Part shown: positions 18,805-27,237 of the stretch, one piece after another | Numbering within the stretch: position 1 is the stretch's first letter | How the letters are laid out: each line of letters starts with the position of its first letter | NCBI GenBank assembly: GCA_012269745.1 | Contig: JAAXJR010000021.1 | Span: forward strand, 1-42,225 | Length of the DNA stretch: 42,225 nt | Direction of reading: 5' to 3' | Source: Flavobacteriales bacterium | GTDB lineage: Bacteria > Bacteroidota > Bacteroidia > Flavobacteriales > Schleiferiaceae | Translations under genes and position numbers: made by a program | The notes under the pieces: generated by a model | What the model saw: the letters and a program-made list of their open reading frames with translations, nothing else | Told to the model about the DNA's origin: nothing | Database searches by the model: none

Positions 18805-19458
18805 TTATTTGAAGAAGTAAGCGACGCTAACAACCAACTGTGCCCTGCGCTGATCTAGATTGAAATCGTAATCAGTGCCGTTGTAGTTGTAGTTCACATT
18901 GCCGGCTAGCATTCCGAATCCACTTTCGTATTTCACTTCACCCAGCAATCTCCAAAGCTTCACACCTGCATGTATGTGCCATCCCCAGGTGAATGCAGCT
19001 TCCTGATCTGGCGTCCATAAATCACTTGCGTTAGATAGGGGGATAGAAGGGGTAGCACCTAAACCGGCGAATGCTGGCCCTAGTTTTGCTCCTGCTGAGA
19101 TAGGGAAATCTAATCGCTGAATGGTGGAATTGATCGTGAAATCTTCGCTGCCATCGGTAATAGCGATTGTTTCGTCAAACTGTGTGTACAGTGCTTCGCC
19201 GTGTACATATACCGGGACTAAAGGAAGGCTTACACGAGCTACGAGGCCGGCGTTAAAACCGTCGCTAAACTCTGTCTGAATGTTGGAAATGTCGTACGTC
19301 TGGTTGTTAACGATATCATTGATGTCGTTCAAGCTTAAGGTCTGCTGAGGTAAGTTCATACCTCCTTTCACACCAAACTTTACGATTTTCAGTTGGGCAA
19401 AAGCGCTAGAAGAAACAAGCATTAAGGCTAGGAGCCCAAAGGATTTAAGGCGTTTCAT
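18805..19458 (-). CDS. Outer-membrane beta-barrel protein (OMP_b-brl type)
   Basis: The 217-residue protein has a signal peptide (residues 1-21, AFA then Q22) and a mature part that begins FGVKGGMNL, the usual first strand of Bacteroidota PorT/OMP_b-brl_2 barrels. Further strands alternate hydrophobic residues (FNAGLVARVSLPLVPVYV, LDFPISAGAKLG, WHIHAGVKLWRL, LVVSVAYFFK) and the chain ends in an aromatic strand. A loop of Asp/Glu/Asn residues lies near 85-105. Function is unknown; these barrels are often structural or assembly factors. It follows purC by 45 nt, but a perfect inverted repeat with a -7-like box in its spacer suggests separate control. Confidence 0.82.
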   Translation of the reverse strand: MKRLKSFGLLALMLVSSSAFAQLKIVKFGVKGGMNLPQQTLSLNDINDIVNNQTYDISNIQTEFSDGFNAGLVARVSLPLVPVYVHGEALYTQFDETIAITDGSEDFTINSTIQRLDFPISAGAKLGPAFAGLGATPSIPLSNASDLWTPDQEAAFTWGWHIHAGVKLWRLLGEVKYESGFGMLAGNVNYNYNGTDYDFNLDQRRAQLVVSVAYFFK

Positions 19459-21502: not shown

Positions 21503-22291
21503 ATGGGATTAATCACCTTATTATCGGATTACGGTCTACGAGACAACACGGTTGCCCGACTAAAGGTTCGTCTGATTCGTCGCATTGAAGGTGCACAGCT
21601 GCTCGATATCAGTCACATGGTGGAGCCGCACAACATCCTTGAGGCGGCGCATATGCTTAGGGGCGTATACCGCGATTTCCCTAAGGGTACCATACACTGT
21701 GTCATGATTGGAACCTCCCCAATGGAGGGTGGAGAGTACATCTGTTTAAAAGCCTGTGGCCAATTCTTTTTAGGTACGAACAACGGTTTGCTCACCAGTG
21801 TCCTGAAAAACGAGAAAATAACCGGTGCGAGAATGTTAGATATCCGGGGGATCGACCCCAACGATGAAAAGGAGTTGTTTGCGGCCGCGGCATCACACCT
21901 GTTTAGCGGCGGAAAGATAGAAATGCTTGGTCCAGCCATCACTTCAGTTAAGAAGGTGAAAGAGCCGGCTGCTGGCATCGGCGATTTTGCCATTAGTGGC
22001 AACGTAGTGTACATCGACCGCATGGGAACATGTGTAACGAATATTTCTCGCGAGAGTTTCCAAAACCAATTGAAGGGCAGGACCTTCTCAGTGGAATTGG
22101 CCCGCAATCGAAACATGAAGAAGATTTACGACCGCATTGCTGATGTACCGCAAGGAAAATTAGCGGCCCTTTGGAACGAGGAAGGCATGCTTTCTATCGC
22201 CGTGGGTAAGAGCGGTGGTGAACATATCAGAGGGAGTAATGAATTAATCGGAATGAAAATTCACGATTGGGTACGCATTGACTTTGTATGA
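21503..22291 (+). CDS. DUF62 (SAM hydroxide adenosyltransferase-like) protein with altered active site
   Basis: The 262-residue protein has the two-domain DUF62 plan: N-terminal ITLLSDYGLRDNTVARLK, DISHMVEPHNILEAAHML, GTIHCVMIG, FFLGTNNGLLTSV, then a C-terminal barrel (VVYIDRMGTCVTNIS, GSNELIGMKIHDWVRIDF). Family enzymes hydrolyse S-adenosylmethionine to adenosine and methionine with an Asp-Arg-His triad from DPGVGxxR and an FHGRD-like segment. Here those places read IGTSPMEGGEY and NDEKELFAAAASHL, so I see none of the three. Bacteroidota relatives are also divergent there. It may be a binder or use other residues. The ABM gene starts inside its stop codon (ATGA). Confidence 0.85.
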   Translation: MGLITLLSDYGLRDNTVARLKVRLIRRIEGAQLLDISHMVEPHNILEAAHMLRGVYRDFPKGTIHCVMIGTSPMEGGEYICLKACGQFFLGTNNGLLTSVLKNEKITGARMLDIRGIDPNDEKELFAAAASHLFSGGKIEMLGPAITSVKKVKEPAAGIGDFAISGNVVYIDRMGTCVTNISRESFQNQLKGRTFSVELARNRNMKKIYDRIADVPQGKLAALWNEEGMLSIAVGKSGGEHIRGSNELIGMKIHDWVRIDFV

Positions 22292-22584
22292 TAGAACGCA
22301 TTGTGAAATTAGCCATTGACCCGAGCTCGGAACAGGGAACTGCCTTTCGTGCGATTTTTGCCGAAAGCAAAAATCGCATCGCTGAACAGCCCGGTTGCCA
22401 CGGTGTACAACTGCTCGAGAGTGAAGGACATTTCTTCACCTTCAGTCATTGGGAAACTGAAGAAGATTTAAACGCTTACCGCCAAAGTGCGTTATTTGGA
22501 GAGGTATGGCCTAAAACCAAGGCGTTATTTTACGATAAACCCCAGGCATGGACGTGCCATAAGACCGACAGCAGCGAAGCATGA
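22288..22584 (+). CDS. Antibiotic biosynthesis monooxygenase (ABM) domain protein
   Basis: The 98-residue protein is a single ABM/ferredoxin-like fold: strand IERIVKLAI, helix, the QPGCHGVQLLE turn, FFTFSHWETEEDLNAYRQS and a closing helix with FGEVWPKTKALF. Family members include quinone oxidases, haem-degrading enzymes and many of unknown role; the haem-binding pattern is not evident. It overlaps both neighbours by 4 nt (ATGA at each end), so it is tied to production of the DUF62 protein and the GldF-GldG fusion. Function unknown. Confidence 0.82.
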   Translation: MIERIVKLAIDPSSEQGTAFRAIFAESKNRIAEQPGCHGVQLLESEGHFFTFSHWETEEDLNAYRQSALFGEVWPKTKALFYDKPQAWTCHKTDSSEA

Positions 22585-24995
22585 TTGCACAACTAAAGAA
22601 AGAACTACAGCTCTACTTTTCGGGCATCTTAGGCTATTTGATCATTGGCATTTATTTGCTTGTGAACGGCTTGATGCTCTGGATTTTTAACGGACCCTTC
22701 AACCTATTGGAAGGCGGCTACGCTTCATTGACCAACTATTTCGGTCTTGCGCCGTGGGTGTTCTTGTTCCTCATCCCAGCGGTAAGCATGCGGGTCTTCA
22801 GCGATGAGATTCGTTCAGGCATGATGGAGCTATTGGCGGTTCGTCCAATTTCAACGACTCAACTAGTCGTCGCTAAATACCTCGGAACACTTTCTGTCGT
22901 GGTATTGAGCATTGCCCCCACGCTTATCTACCTCTGGAGCATGAGCGCTTTAGGCTCGCCTGTAGGAAATTTGGATTGGGGCGCAGCTATTGGGTCATTT
23001 ATTGGTCTTTTTGCCTTGGGTGCAGCCTACACTGCGGTCGCACTTTTCGCCAGCGCACTTACCTCGAACAATGTGGTAGCCTTCGTTCTAGGCGTAGCCC
23101 TTAACATGGGCATGTACCTTGGATTCGAAGCACTGGCAGATATCTATAAATTCAGCGGTTGGGAACTCACGATGCGCCAGTTCGGATTTAACGAACATTA
23201 TACTTCTGTGTCTCGTGGTGTATTGGATGGCCGCGATTTAGGGTACTTCATTGGCGTAGTGCTGCTGTTTCTCTCCGGAACATTCATTGTACTCAGCAGA
23301 CGCCACCTTCACGCGACAGCTCGTACCAAAACAGCCTACTTTGTGGGTGCGTTATTGGTTATTCTTATTAGCCAAAGCGTACGTTTTAGAATAGATTTAA
23401 CCGAAGAGGGAAGGTATTCACTGAGCGAAGGGACAGAATCTTTGTTGGACCAGGTGGAAGAGCCCATGCTCATCAAGGTCTACCTCGAGGGCCAATTCCC
23501 TGCGGGTTTTGAGCGCCTAAAGCTTGAAACGCAATTCATGCTCGAAGAGTGGAGTGCACGCAACGGCAATGTATTCTTTGAATTCATCAATCCAAACGAG
23601 GCTGAAAAGCAAGCGGAGTTTAAGAACCAATTGGCCACCAAAGGCATAAATGCCGTGCAGCTTCAGGTGAAAACGAAGGACGGCGAGAGCGTGCTCAATG
23701 TCTTTCCAGCGGCGGTGATGAGCTATAAAGAGAAAGAAGAGACAGTCATTCTTTTGGAAGACGTGATGGTTTTCGATCCAGCAGAACAAGTAAACATTAG
23801 CATACAACAACTTGAGTTCAATTTGGCGCGTTCACTCTCTGCACTGCTGCAAACCGAACGTCAGAAAATTGCCATGATTACCGGACACGGCGAGCTTACG
23901 GCCTCACAGACGGCGGGTATAGGATTGGCCTTGAGTGAACATTATGCGGTCGAACGATTCTCTATGGAGACCTACAAGGCAAAGGCCGACGGTTCACCGG
24001 ATATCGAGGACATGGTGCGCCGCTTGAATAGTTTTGACCTGGCGGTGGTTGCTAAACCTACGAAGGCCTTCTCGGAATTGGACAAATATCTATTGGACCA
24101 ATTCCTCATGGGGGGCGGACACCTCATGTGGTTTGTGGACGGCGTTCATGCAGAAATGGATAGCTTGAGCTTCGGTCCAGAATTTTTGGCATACCCCACC
24201 TATTTCGACCTGAACCTTACTGATCTGCTTTTCAAATACGGCGTACGCGTTAACACCAACCTCATTCAAGACATACGTTGCGTAGGGATCAACGACAGAC
24301 GCAGCATCAACCCTTGGGTCTATTTCCCATTATTGGGGCCAACTGCCCATCCTGCGGTAGCCAACCTCAATGCGGTCAAAGGAGAATTTACGAGCACACT
24401 AGACACTTTGGAGGCTCCTGGTATTCTGAAAACCCCATTGTTGCTAAGCTCAACCAATGCCAAGAGCACACCTGCGCCGCACACGGTGAGTTTAGAAACG
24501 TTGTACAATCGTCCGGACCCACGCACCTTCCGCAGCAAAGACCTGCTAGCAGGTGTGCTCCTTGAAGGAATTTTTGAAAGTGCCTATGCCAATAGGATTG
24601 CGCCGCGTACTGCGGGTAATGCATTGCCTCAGATCAAAGAGAGTGCACCAACGAGCATTGCTGTTTTCAGCGACGGAGATATCATTCGAAACCAGGTGAA
24701 CCTCATTAACCCGGAGCTCCCTCGAGGTCAACCTTTACCGCTGGGCTTTGATCAGTACACCAACATTCAATACGGCAATGACGATTTGCTTTTGAACCTT
24801 ACAGACTACATGTTGGACGATCGCGGACTGATGGAAACGCGTACGCGCGACATCAAATTGAGATTGCTCAGCGAAGAGAAATTGACCAATGAAGCAGCCA
24901 AGTGGAAAGCAATTAATGTGGCCTTACCTGAGGTGCTACTGTTGCTTGTTGCCGGTATGTTGACCCTATACAGAAGAAGAAAATATGCACGTTAA
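22581..24995 (+). CDS. Fused GldF-GldG ABC transporter membrane protein
   Basis: The 804-residue protein looks like GldF and GldG in one chain (separate forms are about 241 and 561 residues). Residues 1-243 are the permease: MIAQLKKELQLYFSGILGYL, six helices, VFSDEIRSGMMELLAVRPIS. From about 247 a new helix (TAYFVGALLVILISQ) leads into the GldG opening FRIDLTEEGRYSLSEGTESLL, then the soluble domain with PMLIKVYLEG, KIAMITGHGEL, QFLMGGGHLMWFVDG, and a last helix at about 780-797. With GldA ATPase it forms the transporter linked to gliding in Flavobacterium; in related non-gliders its role is open. GldA is not here. There is no stop or frameshift at the join (near 23310). It overlaps the ABM gene by 4 nt and the lipoprotein gene by 11 nt. 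Confidence 0.9.
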   Translation: MIAQLKKELQLYFSGILGYLIIGIYLLVNGLMLWIFNGPFNLLEGGYASLTNYFGLAPWVFLFLIPAVSMRVFSDEIRSGMMELLAVRPISTTQLVVAKYLGTLSVVVLSIAPTLIYLWSMSALGSPVGNLDWGAAIGSFIGLFALGAAYTAVALFASALTSNNVVAFVLGVALNMGMYLGFEALADIYKFSGWELTMRQFGFNEHYTSVSRGVLDGRDLGYFIGVVLLFLSGTFIVLSRRHLHATARTKTAYFVGALLVILISQSVRFRIDLTEEGRYSLSEGTESLLDQVEEPMLIKVYLEGQFPAGFERLKLETQFMLEEWSARNGNVFFEFINPNEAEKQAEFKNQLATKGINAVQLQVKTKDGESVLNVFPAAVMSYKEKEETVILLEDVMVFDPAEQVNISIQQLEFNLARSLSALLQTERQKIAMITGHGELTASQTAGIGLALSEHYAVERFSMETYKAKADGSPDIEDMVRRLNSFDLAVVAKPTKAFSELDKYLLDQFLMGGGHLMWFVDGVHAEMDSLSFGPEFLAYPTYFDLNLTDLLFKYGVRVNTNLIQDIRCVGINDRRSINPWVYFPLLGPTAHPAVANLNAVKGEFTSTLDTLEAPGILKTPLLLSSTNAKSTPAPHTVSLETLYNRPDPRTFRSKDLLAGVLLEGIFESAYANRIAPRTAGNALPQIKESAPTSIAVFSDGDIIRNQVNLINPELPRGQPLPLGFDQYTNIQYGNDDLLLNLTDYMLDDRGLMETRTRDIKLRLLSEEKLTNEAAKWKAINVALPEVLLLLVAGMLTLYRRRKYAR

Positions 24996-26013
24996 AAACA
25001 GTCTTTATAGCCTATTATTGGCCCTAGTCGTGGTCAGTTGTGGTTCACCCACCCAAAGCGACGGTATGGAAGAACTTAAGGCACAGTACGACTTTGCTAT
25101 TGCCGATACGGCGAGTATTACCAAGGTTGTGATTAGCGATAAGAAACCTTCACAGGTAGTTCTTGAACGCACGGAAAGTGGCTGGTTGGTAGACGGGCAG
25201 CATCCCGTTCGTAAGGATGCTATTGAGGTATTGTTAGAAACCTTAGGCAGTGTAACGCTGAAGAACTTTGTTTCTAAAAGCGCGGTTCCGGCCGTAAATC
25301 AGCGCATGGAAGTGTACGGCAAATGGGTTGAGGTATATAGCGGAGAAGAGTTAGTGAAAAGCTACATCGTGGGGACAGAGACCCCGGATATGCTAGGTAC
25401 CTATTACCGCATGGTCAATTCAGAATTGCCCTTTTCCGTCTACATCCAAGGTTTTAATGGGTATTTAACCACTCGATTCTTTACAGAGCCTTCTATGTGG
25501 CGCGACAGAACCATATACGGCCTTGCTCCAGGGCAAATTGAAAGTATTGAGATGAATGTCAATGGACCTGAGGGCTTCTTTTGGATGATTACCCGCAAAG
25601 AGGGTGATGAATTGAAGGCTCCTGCAAATGAGGCAGGTAGTTGGTCTTTGGTGGGGGGTGAGTTCGAGCCATTGCCCTTCAGCAATCCACAACTGCTCTA
25701 TTCAGCAGTGGCTGCTGTTCGTACATTGAAGTACGAGGGTGCTGTTGTCTCCACAGATAACATTTGGGAGAAGAAAGACAGTATTTTTAATTCGACCCCA
25801 GCTTTTTCATTCTATGTCCATACCATCGACGGAGAGATCTTGGAGACGCGCGCATTTTACAAGAAAACCGAAGGCATCTTGATGGGAGAAGACGGTACAC
25901 CGCACGAGTGGGATCCCGACAGATTCTATGCGGAGTTACCGGACGGTAGAATGGCACTTATACAGCGCTACGGCTGGCGTAACCTCATGTTGACCCCTTG
26001 GGAATTTAACTAG
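24985..26013 (+). CDS. DUF4340-like lipoprotein, Gld transporter partner
   Basis: The 342-residue protein has a lipoprotein signal (LALVVVSC, acylated C19) and a periplasmic or outer-membrane-facing body. The pattern SITKVVISDKKPSQVVLERT then GWLVDGQHPVRKDAIEVLLETL fits DUF4340, a domain often encoded beside GldG-type ABC transporters. Further repeats of 'I-x-S-I-E-M-N' style strands and the TTRFFTEPSMWRDRTIYGL segment support the call. It starts 11 nt inside the gldFG frame, so it is coupled to it and probably works with the transporter. Exact role is unknown. Confidence 0.78.
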   Translation: MHVKNSLYSLLLALVVVSCGSPTQSDGMEELKAQYDFAIADTASITKVVISDKKPSQVVLERTESGWLVDGQHPVRKDAIEVLLETLGSVTLKNFVSKSAVPAVNQRMEVYGKWVEVYSGEELVKSYIVGTETPDMLGTYYRMVNSELPFSVYIQGFNGYLTTRFFTEPSMWRDRTIYGLAPGQIESIEMNVNGPEGFFWMITRKEGDELKAPANEAGSWSLVGGEFEPLPFSNPQLLYSAVAAVRTLKYEGAVVSTDNIWEKKDSIFNSTPAFSFYVHTIDGEILETRAFYKKTEGILMGEDGTPHEWDPDRFYAELPDGRMALIQRYGWRNLMLTPWEFN

Positions 26014-26115: not shown

Positions 26116-27237
26116 ATGAAATTCATCGTATCTAGTTCTAAGCTGTTAAAGCAACTCCAACTCATTGGAGGAATTATTCAGAGCAATAACACTTTGCCAA
26201 TTTTGGACAATTTCCTGTTTGAGTTAAAACAAGGGGAGTTAACAGTGAGTGCTTCTGATCTTGAGACTACGATGAGTGTCAATCTAGAGGTTGAGACTGA
26301 AGATACTGGATCAGCAGCAGTACCGGCGAAAGTATTGATGGATACGTTGAAGACCTTCCCGGAGCAGCCGTTGACCTTCACGTTTGACGAGGGGTCGCAC
26401 ACGATTGAATTATCTTCAGATTACGGTAAATACTCGTTGGCCTTTATTGACGGTGACGAGTTTCCGAAATTTCCTGAGCTCGAGGACGCCACATCTACAA
26501 CACTTCCTGCTGAGGTCTTGGTTACTGCCATTGGTAAAACGTTGTTCGCAACAGGAAACGACGAGCTTCGTCCAGTGATGAGTGGTGTTTTCTTCCAGTT
26601 CGATTCAAACGGATTGACCTTCGTAGCTACTGATGCACACAAGCTTGTGCGTTACAGAAGAACAGACCTAGGTGCAGAGAGCACTGCTGAGTTCATTATG
26701 CCGAAGAAGCCGTTGAACATGCTTCGTGGTTCATTGAGCTATGATTCTTCAGAGGTGAAGGTGGTTTACAACAACACCAATGCACAGTTCTCGTTTGATA
26801 ATGTGGTTATGGTATGTCGACTAATTGACGGTAAATACCCGAATTACGAGGCAGTTATCCCGCAATCGAACCCGAATGTGATGTTGGTAGATCGCAGTGC
26901 GTTCTCTTCTTCAGTGAAGCGTGTGGCTATCTTCTCAAATAAAACGACGCACCAGATTCGTTTGCGTATCGCAGGCGCAGAAATGGGCATCAGTGCAGAA
27001 GATCCAGATTTCAGCAACAAAGCGAACGAACGCTTGGCTTGTGATTATCAGGGCGATGACATGGAGATTGGCTTTAACAGCCGTTTCCTGTTAGAAATGC
27101 TCGGCAACCTAGGTTCTGATAACGTGCGTATGGAGATGAGCGCACCGAATCGTGCAGGTATTCTTATCCCAGCGGATGGTGTAGACGAAGGTGAAGACCT
27201 ATTGATGTTGGTAATGCCTGTGATGCTTAATCACTAA
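26116..27237 (+). CDS. dnaN: DNA polymerase III beta sliding clamp
   Basis: The 373-residue protein is the beta clamp, three repeated domains of about 120 residues, matching the usual 366-375. Visible: MKFIVSSSKLLKQLQLIGGII-like start (quoted in part: VSSSKLLKQLQLIGG), NTLPILDNFLFEL, DLETTMSVNLEVE, RPVMSGVFFQF, FVATDAHKLVRYRR, DGKYPNYEAVIP, FNSRFLLEML and the C-terminal LLMLVMPVML. It forms the ring that holds polymerase on DNA. It is not beside dnaA or recF; instead it follows the gldFG/DUF4340 genes. It converges on the next minus-strand gene with an 11-nt gap and no visible terminator. Confidence 0.98.
   Translation: MKFIVSSSKLLKQLQLIGGIIQSNNTLPILDNFLFELKQGELTVSASDLETTMSVNLEVETEDTGSAAVPAKVLMDTLKTFPEQPLTFTFDEGSHTIELSSDYGKYSLAFIDGDEFPKFPELEDATSTTLPAEVLVTAIGKTLFATGNDELRPVMSGVFFQFDSNGLTFVATDAHKLVRYRRTDLGAESTAEFIMPKKPLNMLRGSLSYDSSEVKVVYNNTNAQFSFDNVVMVCRLIDGKYPNYEAVIPQSNPNVMLVDRSAFSSSVKRVAIFSNKTTHQIRLRIAGAEMGISAEDPDFSNKANERLACDYQGDDMEIGFNSRFLLEMLGNLGSDNVRMEMSAPNRAGILIPADGVDEGEDLLMLVMPVMLNH

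Follow-up and report, generated by a model that had tools for sequence, protein, structure and literature searches.

On the forward strand of the window, meaning the whole 42,225-nt stretch of Schleiferiaceae DNA that was analysed, positions 22581 to 24995 form a single uninterrupted ATG-to-stop frame of 804 codons, exactly the extent proposed in the first-pass annotation; the minus strand of the same interval has stops throughout. ORF reading and matches to NCBIfam and Pfam models identify this gene, here called gldFG, as a fused GldF-GldG ORF with a product of 804 aa. All features given below lie on the forward strand.

The GldF half (residues 1-239, 22581..23297) matches the NCBIfam model TIGR03518 over profile positions 1-238 of 240 with 281.2 bits (E 9.1e-84), about 7 bits below the curated cut-off of 288.5. 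The GldG portion matches TIGR03521 at residues 255-803, covering profile positions 9-552 of 552, with 534 bits (E 4.2e-160) and surpasses its cut-off of 389.85 by 144 bits. Assignment of the two halves to GldF and GldG, as the first-pass annotation had it, was right, with the caveat that the GldF model, matched along nearly all of its length, scores under its threshold. As controls, split GldF proteins from five members of the family scored 300-330 bits against TIGR03518; of five other fused forms, four scored 302-360 bits and one, from genus g17, fell below the cut-off at 259.5 bits. Judging from these scores, the GldF shortfall is a near miss of the divergent genus g1, to which our genome belongs. 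The gene segment directly 5' of GldG encodes an ABC-2 type permease (Pfam ABC2_membrane_3, residues 53-179) with approximately six predicted helices, a count that is an interpretation of overlapping hydropathy segments. Within GldG, the domains DUF7088 (PF23357, residues 275-380, 23403..23720) and ABC_transp_aux (PF09822, residues 427-739, 23859..24797), the latter predicted from hydropathy to be extracytoplasmic, are flanked by an N-terminal membrane helix (residues 251-269, 23331..23387) and a C-terminal one (residues 778-796, 24912..24968).

In most loci of the family the gene order is purC and phoH (opposite strand), SAM hydrolase, ABM, gldF and gldG either fused or split, DUF4340 and dnaN. 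The surroundings of gldFG in the window follow this order and so agree with those of split-gene relatives. Upstream of gldFG lie two conserved neighbours recognized by Pfam and synteny, a SAM hydroxide adenosyltransferase (SAM hydrolase; 21503..22291) and an ABM-domain protein (22288..22584) that overlaps gldFG by 4 nt. Downstream, a gene for a DUF4340 protein of 342 aa (24985..26013; PF14238, synteny) starts 11 nt before the end of the gldFG stop; the protein opens with a hydrophobic stretch ending in VVSC, read here as a lipoprotein-like N-terminus. The DUF4340 gene and gldFG are likely part of the same operon. The DUF4340 gene is followed by dnaN (26116..27237; NCBIfam, synteny), the usual downstream neighbour of gldG, in line with the gldF-gldG-dnaN order described for Flavobacteriia (PMC5682007). 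In family f3, presumably Flavobacteriaceae, five loci (L079-L081, L088 and L089) differ from the present one in that no DUF4340 gene was found between gldG and dnaN. Outside our own family, DUF4340 relatives were found at L090-L094 and L097 (families f7, f10, f12, f13 and f14), and none was found at E 1e-4 in the stretches around L079-L089, L095, L096 and L098 (f2, f3, f4, f5, f9, f16 and f17). Altogether, six families have loci in which DUF4340 separates gldG from dnaN, and in f3 and six others it was not found. At two loci, L035 (G061, g18) and L050 (G038, g16), gldF and gldG lie outside the purC-phoH...dnaN neighbourhood and none of these neighbours was matched.

The junction between GldF and GldG

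Hydropathy of the gldFG product outlines six GldF helices, a loop at residues 239-250, the helix at 251-269, about 506 further residues, the helix at 778-796 and a basic tail. The first-pass annotation had regarded the helix after the junction as a new, added linker helix. This is wrong, because the GldG profile begins there, starting at profile position 1-10 in all six fused proteins scanned, and because the same helix is present in split GldG proteins, where it lies after the start and before the R-x-D-L-T motif. The membrane helix at about 251-269 is the native N-terminal one of GldG and not an insertion. The true linker (approximately residues 240-250, 23298..23330, delimited by hydropathy, junction sequences and dN) is only some ten residues long and basic, with four K/R and no D/E in the loop 239-250, and its sequence varies even inside the genus. 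At one locus of genus g14 (L028), the usual GldF ending SRKW is retained and runs directly into the GldG N-terminus. Charge patterns of GldF loops 4 and 5 and of the inner loops give no clear marking.

Four pairs were compared at the codon level, of which only the window versus L067 is unsaturated in dS. For this pair the dN/dS values are 0.028/0.86 in GldF, 0.101/1.468 in residues 231-268 and 0.023/1.116 in GldG, so that the dN of residues 231-268 is about four times that of either half. In this comparison, strong purifying selection acts on both halves, and the join is less constrained.

Occurrence of fused and split forms

The genome carrying the window (2.27 Mb, 87 contigs) has one copy of gldFG. 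At E 0.01 it contains no separate GldF or GldG, the sole other match being a weak ABC-2 permease (E 9.6e-4). Among 25 genomes of genus g1, 22 are fused across the junction (20 full-length and 2 partial) and three hold fragments that do not span it; all 22 informative genomes are therefore fused, at identities down to 73%, which disposes of the concern that a stop codon near 23310 had been lost through an artefact. Contigs from GTDB supplied 14 named loci, 73-99% identical, whose titles refer to MAGs of Cryomorphaceae, Schleiferiaceae, Flavobacteriales or Bacteroidetes bacteria. Thirteen are stop-free across the junction and the other (L077) covers only residues 405-804, downstream of it; at least six of the 14 are records already in the family survey described below, and the set adds names and sequencing projects rather than an independent sample. 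The gldFG gene is a genuine, selected gene fusion and no sequencing error.

The first-pass annotation had also proposed a survey of fused versus split genes, and both forms were found. In 88 genomes of the family, counted by hand from the match table, 37 have fused genes (22 in g1, three in g5, three in g14 and nine in g17), 39 have split genes, seven have only in-frame stops between the halves (three in g17, two each in g6 and g18), four hold fragments not spanning the junction (G046, G065, G083 and G086) and one is without a match (G035). The split genes of the family resemble the present one: the halves are approximately 42-50% identical, the neighbourhood is the same in most loci and GldG has the same first helix. 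They differ in being two genes, with a 1-nt stop/start overlap in 9 of the 34 split rows of a 72-row junction table. Six rows of this table have no resolved junction (L036, L041, L053, L056, L084 and L093), and spacings were left out for several split rows in which the ATG chosen by the script lies inside a membrane helix.

In wider surveys, 223 of 296 genomes of the order gave matches at 1e-60 and 106 of 247 genomes of the phylum at 1e-30. Among the matches listed, fused genes occur in the order outside our own family in G144, G152 and G184 (f3), G088 and G102 (f2), G090 (f4) and G095 (f9), and outside the order in G410 and G511 (f16) and G350 (f17). These surveys comprise the matches listed, so that further forms of low score, fused or split, may exist. 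Fused forms thus extend to at least four other families of the order and at least two families outside it. The fusion is not unique to this organism and is common to the related marine bacteria examined. Other fused GldFG proteins (g5, g14, part of g17, f2, f3, f4, f9, f16 and f17) share the architecture described here, with stop-to-stop frames of 785-887 codons. The five of them that were scanned (g5, g14, g17, f3 and f16) match both NCBIfam models, the g17 protein again below the GldF cut-off. They differ from the window's protein in linker sequence, and those of f16 have gldA nearby.

A 72-locus tree, with 31 fused, 34 split and 7 in-frame rows, requires at least eight changes of the fused state, seven of them forced by supported branches. 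Three are needed in a 46-row tree, from which 26 rows were dropped as near copies, for their long branches or for coming from outside the order. Both trees were computed under LG+G4, with no mixture model, and the larger one includes the long fused branches of G095, G350, G090 and G088. The fusion recurs in several separate lineages, and gains and losses are indistinguishable on these trees. The alternative topology in which the fused rows of our family form one clade was rejected by the AU test (p 2.7e-101 under LG+G4, with 12 fused versus 34 rows).

In-frame neighbours of gldF and gldG exist also in g6, g17, g18, f5 and f10. At L032, L033, L034, L035, L061, L097 and L098, the two genes share a frame and are parted by one or two stops and a few codons. 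The step from split to fused can therefore be small, such in-frame neighbours being one small step away.

We also considered the fusion as a cause of faster evolution. This is unsupported, as GldF distances to the outgroup fail to track fusion (0.84-0.89 in fused g1, 0.78-0.82 in split g17 and 0.57 in fused g14), and GldG distances overlap. The stem of g1 in the tree is long (0.72).

GldA and the gliding machinery of the same genome

As the first-pass annotation had stated, gldA is not adjacent to gldFG. It was found elsewhere in the genome, on contig C54 (L014:1447-2142), where the best GldA match scores 332.5 bits, below the cut-off of 402.6. Unlike the GldA model with its 301 positions, this GldA is a complete ORF of 231 aa that covers model positions 1-218 and misses approximately the last 80. 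The next-best ATPase (188.8 bits, contig C58) adjoins the weak ABC-2 permease match mentioned above. Since the GldA model gave matches in all 14 control genomes, none of them over the cut-off, weak GldA matches mean little.

GldA was matched at 1e-75 in 48 of a chosen set of 51 genomes; 24 of these proteins are short and 24 reach the end of the model (23 over the cut-off). Full-length GldA is present in 8 of the 24 fused-gldFG genomes with a match, and short GldA also accompanies split genes in g15, g19 and part of g17. A link between fusion and short GldA did not hold up: among the tree rows, GldA is short in 16 of the 23 with fused genes and in 8 of the 24 without, and the four independent pairs on supported branches give a non-significant result. 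In family f16, the fused gldFG is preceded by gldA at a distance of approximately 1.2-1.4 kb, and at L086 it is followed by dnaN.

The genome also encodes core components of the gliding and type IX secretion (T9SS) machinery, for which the first-pass annotation had recommended a search. GldM, SprA and GldJ score over their cut-offs, and a GldB candidate reaches 189 bits against a cut-off of 190. In the window itself, 18805-19458 encodes a small outer-membrane beta-barrel protein with a weak PorT/SprT match (16.8 bits against a cut-off of 125).

A probable single-chain transporter and its alternatives

The gldFG product belongs to the same two families as GldF and GldG of Flavobacterium johnsoniae (Fjoh_2722 and Fjoh_2721), which work with GldA; this likeness is judged by the NCBIfam equivalog models, with GldF just below its cut-off, and extends to the order ahead of dnaN as described for Flavobacteriia and to the T9SS/gld genes that the genome carries. 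It differs in that the two proteins form one chain here. We consider it very probable that gldFG encodes a GldAFG-type transporter with GldF and GldG in one chain, doing the job of GldAFG in Flavobacterium.

The product is expected to have eight membrane helices, namely GldF helices 1-6 followed by the two helices of GldG, with GldF acting as the permease and GldG as a membrane-anchored extracytoplasmic auxiliary protein. A short basic linker in the cytoplasm would join GldF helix 6 to GldG helix 1, after which the approximately 506 residues would lie outside the cytoplasm. With the GldF end and the GldG start both predicted to be cytoplasmic, the two proteins would be joinable without altering the topology of either. 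At the level of the primary product, the fusion would fix a 1:1 ratio of GldF to GldG, and the chain is expected to combine with GldA, the ATPase encoded elsewhere in the genome, into (GldFG)2(GldA)2. Such a transporter would serve the machinery of gliding and type IX secretion that depends on GldJ/GldK. Its topology and stoichiometry, the partnership with GldA and the function are all inferred here. An AlphaFold model of the product built on an 11-row alignment has a mean pLDDT of 43.4, too low to be usable, and sequence and profile searches of the PDB with the gldFG product matched no solved structure.

The end use of the transporter may nevertheless differ, and it is a serious possibility, if short of what we expect, that the cell does not glide and retains a true GldAFG orthologue for the sake of T9SS stability and secretion. 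Such a reading overlaps with the preferred one, from which it departs in end use alone, and is consistent with the T9SS parts GldM and SprA. It also agrees with statements that GldAFG is tied to secretion indirectly, through stabilization of GldK (PMC10202324), and that GldF is required for GldK stability (PMC9127263). Against it stands the presence of GldJ and of the GldB candidate, as both proteins appear in PMC5682007 among those needed for gliding in F. johnsoniae.

It is improbable that the fused frame yields two proteins, by an internal GldG start or by cleavage of the linker, which would then work as the split form does. The variable linker would suit such processing, and at least one ATG occurs between the GldF core and the GldG motif in 8 of 12 g1 rows, directly before the GldG helix in L004 and L005. 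However, the window's own segment from the GldF core motif to RIDLT, the GldG motif, contains no ATG, its possible starts being five GTG/TTG codons, and the positions of start codons are unconserved in the genus.

It is very unlikely that gldFG encodes another kind of ABC-2 transporter, one that carries a GldG-like auxiliary domain and has no relation to gliding. The missed GldF cut-off would allow for it, as would the weaker matches to the GldF profile (TIGR03518) that are present in genomes outside the class, but it is at odds with the margin by which GldG passes its equivalog cut-off, with a gene order common to the split gldF-gldG of the family and, up to dnaN, to family f3, and with the T9SS/gld genes of the genome. 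Finally, an error that erased the stop between two separate genes, conceivable in a draft genome and given that in some relatives a mere in-frame stop marks the junction, where one substitution could mimic a fusion, is rejected as vanishingly improbable since separate assemblies, including all 13 named loci that span the junction, read through it.

The DUF4340 lipoprotein is a candidate fourth GldAFG component. A broader proposal, which we make tentatively and consider doubtful, is that the repeated fusions reflect an obligate 1:1 partnership of GldF and GldG, that the complex of many lineages has a fourth member in this overlapping DUF4340 lipoprotein, and that, as its gene was not found next to gldG in f3, presumably Flavobacteriaceae, the F. 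johnsoniae model would represent a reduced GldAFG.

No paper on a GldF-GldG fusion was found in the open-access literature, to which the search was largely confined, and an earlier mention is possible. Where 'gldFG' is used in passages of PMC4832164 and PMC5879114, it denotes two genes or an operon. Passages in PMC5879114 and PMC10202324 call the part that GldAFG plays in gliding largely unknown or unclear, and instability of GldJ in gldA, gldF and gldG mutants is reported in PMC9870892. What we describe is a known transporter in fused form and no new system. Recurrence of the fusion provides natural evidence for GldF and GldG acting as one unit, and the fusion hints at where their ends meet, namely in the cytoplasm. 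Since searches by sequence turned up no solved structure of a related protein, a single-chain GldFG would also be a practical construct for structural work.
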